Positions 2,792 through 9,700 of a stretch of 35,101 nt of DNA are shown here, piece by piece. Source of the stretch: Pseudomonadales bacterium. Its GTDB lineage: Bacteria > Pseudomonadota > Gammaproteobacteria > Pseudomonadales > Pseudohongiellaceae. The notes under the pieces were generated by a model that worked only from the letters and a program-made list of their open reading frames with translations, was not told the DNA's origin and ran no database searches. Location: contig JALEHB010000203.1 in the NCBI GenBank assembly GCA_022763285.1, positions 1 through 35,101 of the forward strand. The letters run 5' to 3'. The translations under genes and the position numbers were made by a program. The first letter of the stretch is position 1; each line of letters begins with the position of its first letter.

Positions 2792-5023
2792 TCAGGGCTG
2801 CCAGGCATAGCTGAATTTGGCAAACAGGGTGCGGTTGGTCTGTTCTATGGAGTCAAAATTGTCGTCCTGGAAACCGGCATCGGAGTAGCCGATAAAGAAG
2901 CGGGTTGCGGCATTGACCTTGTAGCTGTACAGCAGCTGGGTGGTCAGTTCCTTGCTTCGGCTCTGTACCGGGCGCAGATAGAGGTCGGGGTTGCGATCAT
3001 TGTCGATATACTGGGCGGTGAAGCGTACGAAGGCCCGGTTGTTGAACTGGTAGGTCAGTTCCGCATCGGTCAGGGCGGCGTTGAACAGGCGTCCGCCATC
3101 CACATCGAATTTCTGTTTCACGTATTCCAGATCGACCTCCAGATGGCGACCCCAGCGGAAGCTGACTTCCGGTCCCAGGCGGGTGGAACGGCCAAGGCGG
3201 GTATTGGCAAAATCAACGATATCCTCAACCCTGGCATACATGCCCAATTCCAGACCGGCGGAAGGTGAAAAGCTGAAAGAGAGTTGATTGAATTGCTCAT
3301 CGAAGTACTGCCCATTCCAGTAAGTACGGCTGCCGCCGAACAGCCCGTCAAGCCGCGACTGCAGAGGGCCGTCGATATTGACGAAGACCTCGAATTCTTC
3401 TTCCAGTTCGAAGCCGGACTGGTCGTGGGTGATGTCATAGTCCAGGGCGACGCGCACCCGACTGAGAAAACTGTCACCGTCGCGGCGCCAGCTATGTCCC
3501 ACCCGGGTCACGAAATAGCTGTAGTCCACCCGTGAGATGAAACCCAGGTCGGCACGAAAATCTGCGCCCACATCGGTATAGGCCATCCATACATCCCAGC
3601 GCCGGTCATTGTGGCGGTATTCAATGAAATTGAAGTTGTCACTGAGACTGGCGGCCTGGTTGAAATTGTTCTGAATCTGCTGGGGATAGTCGGTTTCCGA
3701 GCGCATGGTTTGCAGGGTAAACACATCGGCATCGGTAGGCCTGAGCACGGCGTCGATACTGGTCACGGTATTGTTATAGCCGTCGCCGCGGCGGTCAGTC
3801 ACCAGGGCACCAATGCTGGATGCGCCAAACACATCGTAGCGATAGCGAGCAATGGAAACATCGCTTTGCATGTCACCCAGCGATGCCAGCCTGGAACTGA
3901 GGCTGCCTGGCATCAGAAAGCTGGTTTGTTCATCCCGGGCATTGAGCAGGCCGAAGGAATGCCGGCCGCTCTTGCCGGTGAGTTTGGCGCCGTATTCGGG
4001 ATCGGCAATATTGCGGGTATGCACCAGGTTCTGGGCCGTGTCGAAATAGTCGGAACCGTCGAGGAAAAAGGTGCGCCGCTCGGGAAAATAGAGACTGAAG
4101 GTGTTGTTGATATCGAGCTGTGCGCTATCGGCTTCCACCTGGGAAAAATCGGGATTGAGGGTGGCATTCAGGTACAGATCCTGATTGATGCCCCAGCGTA
4201 CATCGACGCCGCCGTCGGGATCGATATCTTCACTCTGCCAGCCAGTGCCACTGGCAGGGTCGCGGGTTTCTATGGCGCTGGCAGTGATGGTGGGGATGAT
4301 TTCCAGATTGCGACTGCGTTCGAGATCGGCAAAGCCCTCTGCCTTGCCGATCTGGCAGAGATAGCAGGCTATATCCCGATCACGGGGTTTGCTGGCAATG
4401 CGGTTGCGTCGATCACGGGGATAATGACGCACCAGATCGATGCCCCAGGTCTGGGCGCCCTCGGAGCGGGTGAAGCGCAGTTGCTTCAGGGGAATGGCCA
4501 TTTCCACCATATAACCGGTGTCGGTGATCTGGCCGGCACTGTCCCAGATCGCGTTCCAGGAATCATCTTCGTTGCCATTGATGTCGTCCTGGATGGCGTC
4601 AGTTTGGACACCCAGGGGATTCACCAGAAATTCATAGGCCCGGCGTTCGTCATTGAAGGTGTCCAGCACGATACCTACCCAGTCATCGTCCCAGACTGTA
4701 TCGCGGTCGCGATAGAAGGCGCGGATCTGATCGGGTTCAGGGTCATCGGCAATGAAGGCCACGTACAGCACTTCACCGTCTTCCATCAACAGTCCGCGGG
4801 CAGATACCGCCGCTTCGATGGCATCGCCGGGCTGGAATTCAATATTGACGTCAATCACGGTGGCCCGTTGCCATTCCGCCGCCTCGACATTGCCATCAAT
4901 ATCCGGCGCAGTACTGATGCGGGGAATTTCGTAATTGTAATCCTGTGCCTGGGCAAGGCCTGGAAAAAGCAGACAGAGACACAGGACTGAGCGGGTCAAT
5001 CTGGAGCAGGGAGAAAAATTCAT
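2792..5023 (-). CDS. DUF5916 / CBM9-like outer-membrane beta-barrel protein
   Basis: 743 residues from the ATG at 5021-5023. A longer reading from a TTG at 5068 is rejected because the ATG gives a clean Sec signal peptide (basic MNFSPCSRLTR, hydrophobic core, cleavage at LAQA/QDYN). Residues about 28-220 match the carbohydrate-binding family 9-like domain found at the front of DUF5916 proteins (PDIDGNVEAAEW; later WGIDLVRHYPRDRR). The rest alternates aromatic and polar residues as in an outer-membrane beta-barrel and ends LFAKFSYAWQP, a typical final strand. The segment SLYFPERRTFFLDGSDYF is characteristic of the DUF5916 family. Family members sit in the outer membrane of Gram-negative bacteria; their substrate is unknown and I do not infer one. 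It lies 152 bp upstream of the ECF sigma gene on the same strand, so readthrough or regulation by that sigma factor is possible but unproven. Confidence 0.87.
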   Translation of the reverse strand: MNFSPCSRLTRSVLCLCLLFPGLAQAQDYNYEIPRISTAPDIDGNVEAAEWQRATVIDVNIEFQPGDAIEAAVSARGLLMEDGEVLYVAFIADDPEPDQIRAFYRDRDTVWDDDWVGIVLDTFNDERRAYEFLVNPLGVQTDAIQDDINGNEDDSWNAIWDSAGQITDTGYMVEMAIPLKQLRFTRSEGAQTWGIDLVRHYPRDRRNRIASKPRDRDIACYLCQIGKAEGFADLERSRNLEIIPTITASAIETRDPASGTGWQSEDIDPDGGVDVRWGINQDLYLNATLNPDFSQVEADSAQLDINNTFSLYFPERRTFFLDGSDYFDTAQNLVHTRNIADPEYGAKLTGKSGRHSFGLLNARDEQTSFLMPGSLSSRLASLGDMQSDVSIARYRYDVFGASSIGALVTDRRGDGYNNTVTSIDAVLRPTDADVFTLQTMRSETDYPQQIQNNFNQAASLSDNFNFIEYRHNDRRWDVWMAYTDVGADFRADLGFISRVDYSYFVTRVGHSWRRDGDSFLSRVRVALDYDITHDQSGFELEEEFEVFVNIDGPLQSRLDGLFGGSRTYWNGQYFDEQFNQLSFSFSPSAGLELGMYARVEDIVDFANTRLGRSTRLGPEVSFRWGRHLEVDLEYVKQKFDVDGGRLFNAALTDAELTYQFNNRAFVRFTAQYIDNDRNPDLYLRPVQSRSKELTTQLLYSYKVNAATRFFIGYSDAGFQDDNFDSIEQTNRTLFAKFSYAWQP

Positions 5024-5160
5024 AAATACTGTTCTTGTTGTAATGATGCCGATGTGGAGGCGCCGCAATTTTGGCAGACCCGCCCATTTCAGGCAAACCG
5101 GTGCTCTTTATTGCTTTGACGCCTGTCGGGCAGCAAAGGTTGCAATGCAAATGGCAGGCA

Positions 5161-5213: not shown

Positions 5214-5798
5214 CTATTGCCCGGCCATTTCTGCGGCGGCCTCCACAATGAAGTCGAAGTCGGGCCGATCACGATAGCTCTCTTCGGCGAATTTGTAGCG
5301 GATGATACCGTCAGGGCTGAGCAGGAATATCCCCGGGTAGGGCACACCATAGGCACGACTACCGGGTTCGTACTCGGTGTTCAGAATCCCCAGACGATTC
5401 ACATGGCTGATGTCCTCGTCATGAAGCAGGGTGAATTCCACCCCCCGGTCCAGTTCCACTTCCTTGAGGAAGTCCACCGGATCGTAAGTCATGGCGGCGA
5501 CATTGATGCCCAGTTCCTCGAACTGGTCGCTAATCTCTATCAGCTGCACGAGCTGAGCAGTACAGAAGGGTCACCAGTCGAAGGAGCGACTGAGCATGAA
5601 CAACAGTCCATTCTCACCCACCAGATCCTCGAACTGGCGTAAGTCGCCATTCTGGTCCTGGGCCGACAGCTCCGGCAATGCGGCTCCAACTGGATAATCC
5701 GGCGCCCAGACAAAGTCCTGGGCCAGCGCCAGCTGCGAGCAGGCCCACAGGCCGGCACTGAACAGCAGTATTAACAGTTTATTGGTTTTTTTGCCCAT
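5214..5798 (-). CDS. Thioredoxin-fold/peroxiredoxin-like selenoprotein (in-frame TGA read as Sec)
   Basis: Two minus-strand ORFs (5798-5574 and 5570-5214) lie in one frame, separated only by a TGA at 5573-5571. Read through, they give 194 residues. Residues 1-27 are a signal peptide (LALAQ end; a lipobox-like LWAC is also present), so the protein is periplasmic. The TGA falls at residue 76 in FDW-U-PFCTAQL, which aligns with the CPxC redox motif (SxDWCPxCxAQL) of AhpC/TSA-related redoxins; the resolving Cys is C79, giving UxxC. The segment after the TGA continues the fold without a break (NVAAMTYDP, then GVPYPGIFLLSPDGIIRYKF). The start ATG at 5796-5798 follows AAGGGAG. It lies 91 bp after lepB on the same strand. 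Known family: UxxC Prx-like selenoproteins occur in marine bacteria. Inference: a thiol-disulfide oxidoreductase or peroxidase. The alternative, a pseudogene caused by a nonsense mutation, is less likely because the stop sits exactly at the catalytic residue. Confidence 0.82.
5535..5567 (-). promoter_or_regulatory. Candidate bacterial SECIS hairpin
   Basis: Immediately 3' of the TGA the mRNA can fold into an apical hairpin UCAGCU-CGUGC-AGCUGA (5556-5540) on a short lower stem UUCU/AGAG, with a 7-nt/1-nt internal loop. The apical loop has 5 nt with G in the second position and starts 21 nt after the UGA. These values fit the published bacterial SECIS model: small apical loop, a G in its first two bases, and 16-37 nt from the UGA. 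The hairpin lies within the coding sequence, as bacterial SECIS elements do, and would recruit SelB with Sec-tRNA. Confidence 0.6.
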
Positions 5799-5889
5799 CG
5801 CGGCTCCCTTGGTTTGGAATTGTCCTTACTAAACCCGCATCGGGCGGATTTTCTTTCAGCCGATTGCCGGCGTGTTAAGGAAAAAGGGA

Positions 5890-6585
5890 TTACTCGATTG
5901 CCGCCAGGAAACGTTCGCCCCGGGGCAGGTAGTTGTTGTGGCTGTCGAGGGAGAATACCACCGAGCTGGAACGGCCAATGATTTCTTCTCTGGGGATAAA
6001 ACTGTAAACACGGCTGTCGGCGCTGTTGTCACGATTGTCCCCCAGCACAAAATACTGGTCATCCGGCACGATGGTGGGACCATAGGAACGGCTGGAGCGA
6101 TTCACGAAACCGCTGAGGACCTGAGCCTGATGGCTGCGCTGCTCCAGTTCCTCGATCAGGATAATGGCATCGCCTTCCCGGTCCAGTACCTCATAATGGG
6201 CCGCCTCACCGTTAATCACCAGGGCATTGTTCTGCATATAGATGGTATCGCCGGGCAGCCCCACAATGCGTTTCACCAAACGCTTGCCCGCCCGTTTGCT
6301 GTCAATTATGACCACATCACCACGCTGGGGATCGCCGGTTTCGGCCAGGGAAATCTCGGTAAAGGGAATCTTGACGTCATAGGCCAGCTTGTTGACCCAG
6401 ACCTTGTCACCATCCAGCAGGGTGGGTTGCATGGAGGCACCGGAAATGGAGCTGAGATCGGCTATGGCACTCTTGAAGAAGACGATGGAACAAAGCAAAA
6501 AGATAAACTGCCGGTTGTCTTTCCAGAAATGATTGAGGGAAGACAGCAGGCGTTGGCCGAGGGGAAGCTTTGCGGGATCGTGCAT
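5890..6585 (-). CDS. lepB: Signal peptidase I
   Basis: 231 residues from the ATG at 6583-6585, preceded by AAGG. Upstream in-frame starts would extend into the divergent lhr gene and give sequence without LepB character. One N-terminal transmembrane segment (about 26-42) anchors the enzyme in the inner membrane with its catalytic domain in the periplasm. Box B is SGASMQPTL with nucleophile Ser51. Box D is KRLVKRIVGLPGD with general-base Lys105. Box E is GDNRDNSADSR (182-192). This S26 protease removes signal peptides from Sec and Tat substrates. It is shorter than the E. coli enzyme, having one rather than two membrane segments, as in many other proteobacteria. It is transcribed towards the selenoprotein gene and is divergent from lhr. 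Whether this is the only LepB in the genome cannot be told here. Confidence 0.93.
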   Translation of the reverse strand: MHDPAKLPLGQRLLSSLNHFWKDNRQFIFLLCSIVFFKSAIADLSSISGASMQPTLLDGDKVWVNKLAYDVKIPFTEISLAETGDPQRGDVVIIDSKRAGKRLVKRIVGLPGDTIYMQNNALVINGEAAHYEVLDREGDAIILIEELEQRSHQAQVLSGFVNRSSRSYGPTIVPDDQYFVLGDNRDNSADSRVYSFIPREEIIGRSSSVVFSLDSHNNYLPRGERFLAAIE

Positions 6586-6778
6586 AAGTCGCCTTTCAAA
6601 CAGGTCATGCGGATAAAGAATCAAATTAGCCTTGCCGGCAGGGCATGTCAATCGCAGCTCACCGCAGGATTCGGCAATCAGCCGGACCTGACCCGCGATC
6701 TGCCGATGTGCCTTGCAAAGCGCCAGCGCCTTCAATAACCTGTATAGCCGTACAGTGCCCGTCGAGCTGTCACCGTCT

Positions 6779-9700
6779 ATGTCACTTGCCAATTTCCATC
6801 CCGCCTGCCAGAACTGGTTTCGGTCCCGCTTCGGCGAGCCCACACCGGCACAAGCCCAGGCCTGGCCCGCCATCCAGGCGGGTAAACATACCCTTATTTC
6901 GGCCCCCACCGGCAGCGGCAAGACTCTGGCCGCCTTCTATGCCGCCATTGATGAACTGGTGAAGAAAGGCCTGAACAATCAATTGCAGGACGGGGTTCAG
7001 CTGCTTTATGTCTCACCGCTCAAAGCCCTCAGTAACGATATCCAGAAAAACCTCGAGCAGCCGCTTGACGGGATTGCCGAGCAGCTGCATCTCGTGGGCT
7101 CGCCGCCGGTGGATATTCGCGTGGCGGTGCGAACCGGCGATACGCCGGCCAATGAACGGCAGAAGATGGCGAAAAATCCCCCCCATATTCTGGTAACTAC
7201 GCCGGAATCCCTGTATCTGCTCCTCAGCAGCGCCAGTGGCCGGGCCATGCTGGCCTCGGTCAGCAGCCTGATTATTGATGAAATCCATGCCTTGCTGGGT
7301 GACAAGCGGGGCTCCCATCTGGCCCTGTCGGTGGAACGGCTGGCCCATCTGGTGGCTCGCGAGAATGGCCAGCATCTGCAGCGCATTGGTTTGTCAGCCA
7401 CCCAGAAACCCATCGAAATGGTGGCAAATTATCTGGTGGGGAACCCTTCAGAGTCACAACAGGCCGATTGTGTCATTGTAGACACAGGGTTTCGCCGCGC
7501 CATGGAGATCAATCTGGAAGTCCCGGGCTCGCCATTGACCGCCCTGATGAGCAATGAAGTCTGGGAGGAGCTCTACGAGCGCCTAGTAACGCTCATTAAT
7601 AATCATGAGACAACTCTGGTATTCGTCAATACCCGGCGCCTGTCGGAGCGCCTGGCACTGGCCCTGACCGACCGCCTCGGGGAAGGAGCTGTCTCGGCTC
7701 ACCATGGCAGTATGAGCAAGGATCACCGCCACAGTGCCGAGCAGAATCTCAAACAGGGCAAGCTCAAGGTTCTGGTGGCCACCGCCTCCATGGAGCTGGG
7801 TATCGATGTGGGCTCGGTGGATCTGGTGGTGCAGTTTTCATCGCCGAAAAGCATTGCCACGTTTTTGCAGCGGGTGGGCCGCTCCGGTCACTCCGTCAAA
7901 GGCACACCAAAAGGAGTGCTGTTTCCCCTGACCCGGGATGACCTGGTGGAATCGGCTGCCCTGATTCACAGCATTCGAAGTGGCGAACTGGACGCCATCG
8001 TCATGCCGGAAAAGCCGGCGGATATTCTCGCCCAGCAAATCGTCGCCGAAGTGTCCTCACCCTCGGCCAGTGATGAAGCTTGGGCACTGGATGATATGTA
8101 TGCGCTGCTGCGCCGTGCCTACCCCTACCGTAATCTGGATAGAGATGAGTTCGACAGTATCATCGCCATGCTGGCCGAAGGCTATAGCAGTCGGCGTGGG
8201 AGACGTGGCGCTCATTTGCATCTCGATGCGGTCAACAAGCGCATTCGGGCTCGCCGCGGTGCCAATCTCATAGCCCTGACCAATGGCGGGGCTATCCCGG
8301 ATATGTTCGATTACCAGGTGGTACTGGACCCGGAAGACACCGTGGTGGGCACGCTCAATGAGGATTTTGCCCTGGAAGCCCTGCCGGGTGATGTCTTCAC
8401 CCTCGGCACTCACTCCTGGCAGTTACTGCGTATCGATGGTCTGAAGGTGAGGGTGCGGGACGCCGAAGGCATGCCGCCCACGATTCCGTTCTGGTTTGGT
8501 GAAGGCCCGGGTCGCAGCCGTGAGTTGTCCGAATCGGTGTCCAGACTCAAGGCCACTATCGCCGAACTGCTGATCAATGACTCTGCCAATGCCGCGGTAC
8601 AGTTTTGTGTGGACGCCATTGGCCTGCCGCGCTCGGCCGCCACCCAGATGGTGGAATACCTGCAGACAGGCATGCAGGCCCTGGGCGTGATGCCCACGCG
8701 GGATACCCTGGTGATGGAGCGTTTCTTCGATGAAGTGGGCGACATGCATGTGGTGATTCATTCCCCCTTCGGCAGCCGCCTCAATCGCGGCTGGGGTCTG
8801 GCCCTGCGCAAACGCTTTTGTCGCTCATTCAATTTCGAATTACAGGCAGCGGCCAATGAAGACAGCATCGTCATCTCTTTGGGCTCGGTCCACAGCTTTG
8901 TGCTGGACGAAGTGTTTCGCTATTTGCAGAGCGCATCGGTGCGCGAGGTGCTGATTCAGGCCATGCTGGATGCGCCCATGTTTGAAGTACGCTGGCGCTG
9001 GAATGCCACTCGCTCATTGGCAATCCAGCGCAATCGCAGTGGCAAGCGGGTTCCCCCGCAGTTCCAGCGTATGGATGCCGAAGACCTGGTGGCCCATGTC
9101 TTCCCGGACCAGATTGCCTGCCAGGAAAACATTACCGGTAAACGGGAAGTACCGAAGCACCCACTGGTGGACCAGACCGTCCATGATTGTCTGACCGAAG
9201 CCATGGATATCGACGAGTTGGAAAGCCTGGTGGCAGCAATCGAGGCCAATGAAAAGGAACTGGTGGCCAAAGACCTGCGTGAGCCCTCGCCCTTTGCCCA
9301 GGAAATCATTAACGCCCGGCCCTATGCCTTTCTCGATGATGCGCCCTTTGAAGAAAGGCGCACCAATGCCATACGTCACCGACGCTGGACTGACCCCGAT
9401 GAGGCCAGGGACTACAGCCAGCTCGACCCGGAGGCCATCGCCCGGGTAAAAGAAGAGGCCTGGCCCACGGTGACTCGCAGTGAAGAACTCCATGATGCGC
9501 TTTTAAGCCTGGCCTTCGTCAATGATGAGGAATTCAAACAGCAGAGCTGGGATGCTTTCATGGTCAGTCTGCAGGCAGAAAACCGGGCCCTGCGGGTGGA
9601 CAACGGCAGCCAGGGCCTGTGGATTGCCGCCGAGCAGGCAGCCCGTTTCAAAGTGCTGTTTCCCGACTTTGAGCTACCTGACAGTTTGCCCCAGGCCCTG

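Follow-up and report, generated by a model that had tools for sequence, protein, structure and literature searches.

A redoxin gene of the Pseudohongiellaceae with an in-frame TGA probably decoded as selenocysteine

The window analyzed here is a 35,101-nucleotide stretch (contig JALEHB010000203.1) from a bacterium of the family Pseudohongiellaceae, order Pseudomonadales, and its minus strand carries an AhpC/TSA redoxin gene interrupted by a mid-gene TGA. From sequence comparisons, we judge this codon to be decoded as selenocysteine (Sec), and the gene to encode a genuine selenoprotein, with a probability of roughly 0.96. The redoxin is a further, well-supported Prx-like UxxC selenoprotein of a type known from ocean bacteria, since UxxC Prx-like selenoproteins of PF00578 have already been published (Prx-like 1 in Table 2 of PMC2398784, Table 1 of PMC13188914, PMC9312934, and PMC1088965, each as excerpted); the likeness lies in the shared Pfam family and UxxC motif and is drawn by description. 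In the portions of these sources consulted, an ocean survey of 2008 lists 225 Sec sequences as Prx-like 1 (PMC2398784) and 22 Prx-like UxxC Sec sequences are given for the Sargasso Sea. No paper on a selenoprotein in Pseudohongiella or on selenocysteine in Pseudohongiellaceae was found in the literature searched. The comparison adds a near-frozen SECIS with covariation, a correlation of the state of the codon with the presence of Sec genes, and one lineage that possibly regained Sec.

The redoxin gene and its predicted product

Reading the minus strand through the TGA gives 75 codons from the ATG, the TGA itself, and 118 further codons before a TAG (Table 1). The initial annotation had described two in-frame open reading frames split by this TGA, as the translation bears out, and had expected gene callers to report a 75-residue piece and a GTG-started 111-residue piece; both appear exactly so in the mechanical ORF list (5571-5798 and 5214-5549). 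The read-through protein matched PF00578 (AhpC-TSA) at 71.1 bits (cut-off 26 bits; E 1.1e-19) over residues 37-168, a span that includes the TGA, and also matched PF08534 at a lower 43.8 bits (cut-off 26.6). Searched alone, the 111-residue piece matched PF00578 at 8.8e-10, and the 75-residue piece matched no Pfam family at E up to 1.

Table 1. Features of the redoxin locus and its neighbors within the window
Feature	Position	Strand	Evidence
Predicted selenoprotein gene, 194-residue AhpC/TSA redoxin, Sec at codon 76	5214..5798	-	Translation with TGA as U; PF00578 1.1e-19; same TGA in 67 orthologues including the window gene
Likely ribosome-binding site, AGGGAG	5804..5809	-	By eye
Probable signal peptide, residues 1-26, cut about ALA/QD	5721..5798	-	By eye only
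TGA codon 76, probably read as selenocysteine	5571..5573	-	67/88 orthologues TGA, 21/88 TGC/TGT; Sec genes in genome
Cys79 codon, final residue of U-P-F-C active site	5562..5564	-	TGT/TGC in 88/88 orthologues
Predicted SECIS hairpin, stem UCAGCU/AGCUGA, loop CGUGC	5540..5556	-	Silent-site near-invariance; covariation, absent in Cys genes
Stop TAG of redoxin gene	5216-5214	-	
Signal peptidase (S26) gene, upstream neighbor	5890..6921	-	PF10502 7.4e-41; relatives in 38/75 fetched loci
DUF5916/CBM9-like protein, downstream neighbor	2792..5068	-	PF19313 3.5e-15, PF06452 6.7e-12; relatives in 32/75 fetched loci

The 75 related-locus records come mostly from Gammaproteobacteria metagenome assemblies, several of them titled Pseudohongiella. 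An Lhr-like helicase gene lay near the redoxin in 37 of these loci, many of which are cut by contig ends, and none of the recurring neighbors suggested a redox partner. The listed TTG start of the signal peptidase gene is possibly too far upstream.

A structure model, in which residue 76 was written as Cys, had a mean pLDDT of 86.9 (below 50 for residues 1-23) and placed the start of a helix at residue 77. Its best matches among solved structures were BCP/PrxQ, AhpE, and Prx6-type peroxiredoxins, with Foldseek E values of 1e-12 to 1e-10 for BCP/PrxQ and AhpE. In a profile alignment, U76 fell on the first Cys of ResA chain 3c71 (C-P-H-C), pairing U-P-x-C with C-P-x-C; we take 3c71 to be an engineered active-site form of ResA. 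In a second alignment, to the AhpC/TSA protein 5enu, U76 fell on the Thr of T-P-G-C and C79 on its Cys. Model and alignments together point to a peroxiredoxin-like fold with a thioredoxin-type U-x-x-C site. The protein shares its overall fold with the BCP/PrxQ and AhpE peroxiredoxins but has UxxC where they have TxxC; conversely, the WCPxC site of ResA-type thiol-disulfide oxidoreductases aligns residue for residue (chain 3c71), but the window protein has Sec for the first Cys and its best fold matches are peroxiredoxins.

Such a fold could mean that the Sec protein acts as a peroxidase instead of a disulfide oxidoreductase, as both its top structural matches and the alignment of C79 to the T-P-G-C Cys would allow. 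However, the typical peroxiredoxin PxxxTxxC is replaced by S72-x-x-x-U76-x-x-C79, with U76-P-F-C79 standing in place of TxxC/TxxU, U-P-x-C aligns with ResA, and fused paralogues carry a DsbD_N-like domain (see below), and we consider peroxidase action rather unlikely. Because U-P-x-C falls on the C-P-H-C of ResA in the profile alignments, the preferred reading is a thioredoxin-like disulfide reductase in which Sec would be the attacking residue. The second Cys, C79, is kept as the initial annotation had stated, giving UPFC; its proposed role as the resolving Cys would hold if the protein works like thioredoxin, although the peroxiredoxin alignment gives C79 a different counterpart.

Two other described groups come close. 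The "Redoxin family protein" selenoproteins (PF08534, UxxC; Table 1 of PMC13188914, as excerpted) have the UxxC motif and a PF08534 match in common with the window protein, which scores higher on PF00578; this likeness is again by description. A related profile, that of the SelL-related redox protein (NF040769), gave 44.8 bits, below the family cut-off of 120. The motif of SelL is UxxU, whereas that of the window protein is UxxC.

By eye, the N-terminus shows a K-rich start, a hydrophobic core, and ALA-Q, and a start of the mature part resembling AQDFVWAPDFPVG was seen again in relatives. From this putative signal peptide, judged by eye, we infer that the redoxin is probably exported and periplasmic; its substrate, electron donor, and redox role we likewise infer. 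Pieced together from these parts, SelB with Sec-tRNA would bind a hairpin beyond the UGA and the ribosome would place selenocysteine at position 76. The 194-residue product would be exported and function as a Prx-like thiol/selenol-disulfide oxidoreductase with a UxxC site, in which Sec76 would attack, Cys79 would close a selenenylsulfide, and a DsbD-like relay would restore the redoxin; Sec-less orthologues would use Cys76.

A second, longer (~400 aa) seleno-redoxin family with UPYC or UPPC was also seen (L105:986-2125, L106:971-2179, and L226-L230), with more than one copy in certain genomes of the genus and none seen in the window genome. All four paralogues scanned have a C-terminal DsbD_N-like domain (PF11412, E 2e-5 to 6e-8), three of them over the cut-off, and these fused proteins hint at a DsbD-like electron partner. 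One locus holds two different TGA-containing redoxin genes, L227:905-2110 (+) and L227:2250-3020 (-), convergent and with ends ~140 bases apart; the latter has hydrophobic stretches ahead of its redoxin domain.

Codon 76 in relatives and the Sec machinery

A search of the home family found a match in 128 of 137 genomes, and the strongest rows carried one TGA. At E 3.4e-58 or better, 70 rows had an internal TGA and all 70 were fetched: 67 had it at codon 76, and three (L080, L082, and L083) had Cys there and a TGA elsewhere. Among the 88 orthologues read, the window's included (three partial rows, G035, G097, and G101, fall outside this count), codon 76 was TGA in 67 and TGC/TGT in 21, a proportion that does not give the true TGA:Cys ratio because only 18 of the 35 TGA-less rows at the same E were fetched. 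The TGA therefore lies where the initial annotation had placed the family's first Cys of CPxC, since this column is Cys in 21 orthologues. The 67 TGA-bearing orthologues come from as many genomes, each representing one species, and every one has at least 113 open codons past the TGA and an end stop. A check of relatives for a TGA at other positions or for inactivating mutations did not speak against the selenoprotein, with the same codon used and open frames beyond. An order-wide search gave matches at E 1e-20 or better in 43 of 390 genomes; the 18 TGA genes read there (families f40, f4, and f47) have TGA at the same place, 16 with U-P-x-C, one with U-S-F-C (L200), and one with U-G-Y-C (L212, fetched as well). 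Another order-level region fetched, L232, showed no motif on reading.

In two records titled Klebsiella pneumoniae and Rhodoferax (L177 and L187), the family's redoxin gene was found, and the titles look wrong. The frames of L009, L068, L073, L074, and L086 contain the Sec TGA and also end at TGA, so that TGA seems to carry two meanings within a single gene; the case of L086 is doubtful, being unusually long with 214 residues past the Sec codon.

The Sec machinery that the initial annotation had predicted was found complete in the window genome, a 3.40 Mb draft of 293 contigs (91.5% complete). In a profile search, selB (333.1 bits, cut-off 242.25) and selA (581.6 bits, cut-off 267.9) were found on the same contig, C140, selD on C291 (266.2 bits, cut-off 125), and tRNA-Sec on C282 (65.1 bits, cut-off 47; tRNA-SeC with anticodon tca by ARAGORN). 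Pfam confirmed selA and selB. With all four above their cut-offs, the objection that the machinery might be absent falls away. Within the window, neither Rfam at gathering scores nor ARAGORN gave a match or a tRNA, respectively, and formate dehydrogenase alpha (TIGR01553), a usual Sec client, was not found in the window genome. The selD gene (G000:C291:2232-3119; also L111 and L235) lies inside a 771-codon open frame in which oxidoreductase-like sequence, judged by eye, precedes it; this frame resembles the Ndh-SelD fusions described in the excerpted PMC2398784. The gene directly upstream of selB (L032:1890-3278) is permease-like and resembles, by eye, an L-lactate permease.

Among the 137 genomes of the family, 93 yielded selA and 86 yielded tRNA-Sec. 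Both were present in 56 of the 67 TGA genomes, selA only in six, tRNA-Sec only in five, and in none were both missing; since many genomes are incomplete drafts, these lone absences can be explained by incompleteness. The 21 Cys genomes comprised 13 with neither gene and eight with both. Codon state at position 76 tracks the Sec system, although the eight genomes that have the system and still use Cys count against the selenoprotein reading.

These results bear on three other explanations of the TGA. It could be a real stop between two separate proteins, or be subject to ordinary regulatory UGA readthrough, and a GTG start does lie 22-24 bases beyond it; in selenoprotein genes, too, some ribosomes stop at UGA. 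However, the first piece alone matches no Pfam family and stops just short of the active site, and the codon follows selA and tRNA-Sec; we therefore reject two separate genes and consider a functional stop very improbable. In a draft of 293 contigs a single TGA could also be a sequencing error, or the mark of a pseudogene, but its conservation in 67 one-per-species genomes, with frames open to a final stop in all, together with the silent-site constraint just downstream (see below), speaks against this, and we give it next to no weight. Genome-wide reassignment of TGA to Trp or another residue would equally leave the frame open, but is rejected, as having a negligible chance of being correct, on the strength of the Cys of homologues at codon 76, the preceding Trp codon (TGG in 88/88 orthologues), the five TGA-terminated frames, and the full Sec system with its tca tRNA-Sec.

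A predicted SECIS hairpin downstream of the TGA

The hairpin located 15-31 bases past the UGA is, on the comparative evidence, predicted to be a bacterial SECIS element. In the excerpted PMC1088965, bacterial SECIS elements are marked by a guanosine in a small apical loop directly downstream of the UGA; the apical loop here is of five bases, CGUGC, and contains a G. The 15-base core, CAGCTCGTGCAGCTG (5541-5555, minus strand), spans positions +16 to +30 downstream of the TGA and occurs as an exact copy once in the 3.4 Mb draft genome, at the redoxin gene. Unlike in the Cys orthologues, the core is near-invariant in TGA orthologues, silent positions included. Its Leu is encoded by CTC in 66 of 67 TGA genes versus 2 of 21 Cys genes, and the next codon is GTG in 66 of 67 versus 0 of 21, with 16 of the 21 Cys orthologues having Gln or Glu at this position.

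Covariation was assessed in three alignments. In the home family (A1; 66 of the 67 TGA genes, 47 distinct, L085 omitted), two pairs had two-sided changes, a level matched by 5 of 500 shuffles. A wider set of 50 TGA genes (A3; 25 of the 67 with variants kept, 18 order-level relatives, and seven fused paralogues, omitting L085, L237, and the second L227 gene) had 12 cells changed on both sides, by G-C/A-U and C-G/U-A swaps, and 98.0% of its cells paired, neither of which was reached in 500 shuffles; the choice of genes favored variants, however, and changes are shared among relatives. Two other measures in the same set fell within the shuffles, namely pairs with two-sided change (237/500 as high) and further pair types (450/500). 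The loop G (column 25) was kept in all 50. The 31 Cys genes (A4; 21 of the family and 10 order-level, L231 omitted) were 76.8% paired, with no covariation excess.

Folding of single sequences was less telling. The initial annotation had proposed a hairpin with SECIS-like geometry; one can form at 5556-5540 and has comparative support, but its energy in the window sequence is no better than that of shuffles (5535-5573; z -0.07, 77 of 200 shuffles folding as well), so the case for a SECIS rests on comparison. An alternative fold of 45 bases of the window reached -8.8 kcal/mol versus -6.8 kcal/mol for the chosen hairpin, and the core pair probability was ~0.37 in the window sequence; among the 67 TGA genes it exceeded 0.5 in 40, and among the 21 Cys genes in seven. 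When synonymous codons were randomized, the signal that emerged was weak (mean z -1.0 for the 67 TGA genes, -0.58 for the 21 Cys genes). For the 67 TGA genes RNAalifold picked another helix, CUGUA/UGCAG, which we rejected: although 99.6% of its cells pair, it has no two-sided changes, and its median energy over the 67 genes is -2.0 versus -6.7 kcal/mol for the chosen hairpin.

Gain and loss of Sec within the family

On a tree of 118 proteins (omitting L231, L237, both L227 genes, L226, and L228-L230), the Sec/Cys label required 4 changes versus 27.7 for shuffled labels; order-level placements are unsure, some branches being long. Sec occurs in families f40, f4, and f47 and in the home family, and Cys in the ten f41 orthologues read and in two home-family groups. 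One TGA orthologue, L085, grouped with Cys genes, and its genome has selA and tRNA-Sec. At the expected place of its SECIS (L085:1184-1228), the codons are unlike the usual SECIS; since 18 of 200 shuffles fold as well as these 45 bases (z -1.45), the element stays a candidate. An independent gain of Sec in L085 is possible. We tentatively suggest, as somewhat less probable than its opposite, that the hairpin shapes the protein, Q-L-V-Q-L past the active site having been frozen by the need for the RNA in the home-family Sec lineage, and that the L085/G051 lineage regained Sec with a signal built from its own codons. If true, Sec was lost and then regained within one family, with a separately evolved SECIS.

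Since the ORF list splits the redoxin gene and relatives share the TGA, a seleno-enzyme with Sec in its active site may be hidden from annotation across the family, of which most is known through metagenome assemblies. The many close Sec and Cys orthologues offer a natural set for studying the timing and cause of the replacement of Cys by Sec, as well as the constraint that a protein bears when its coding sequence also contains an RNA signal.
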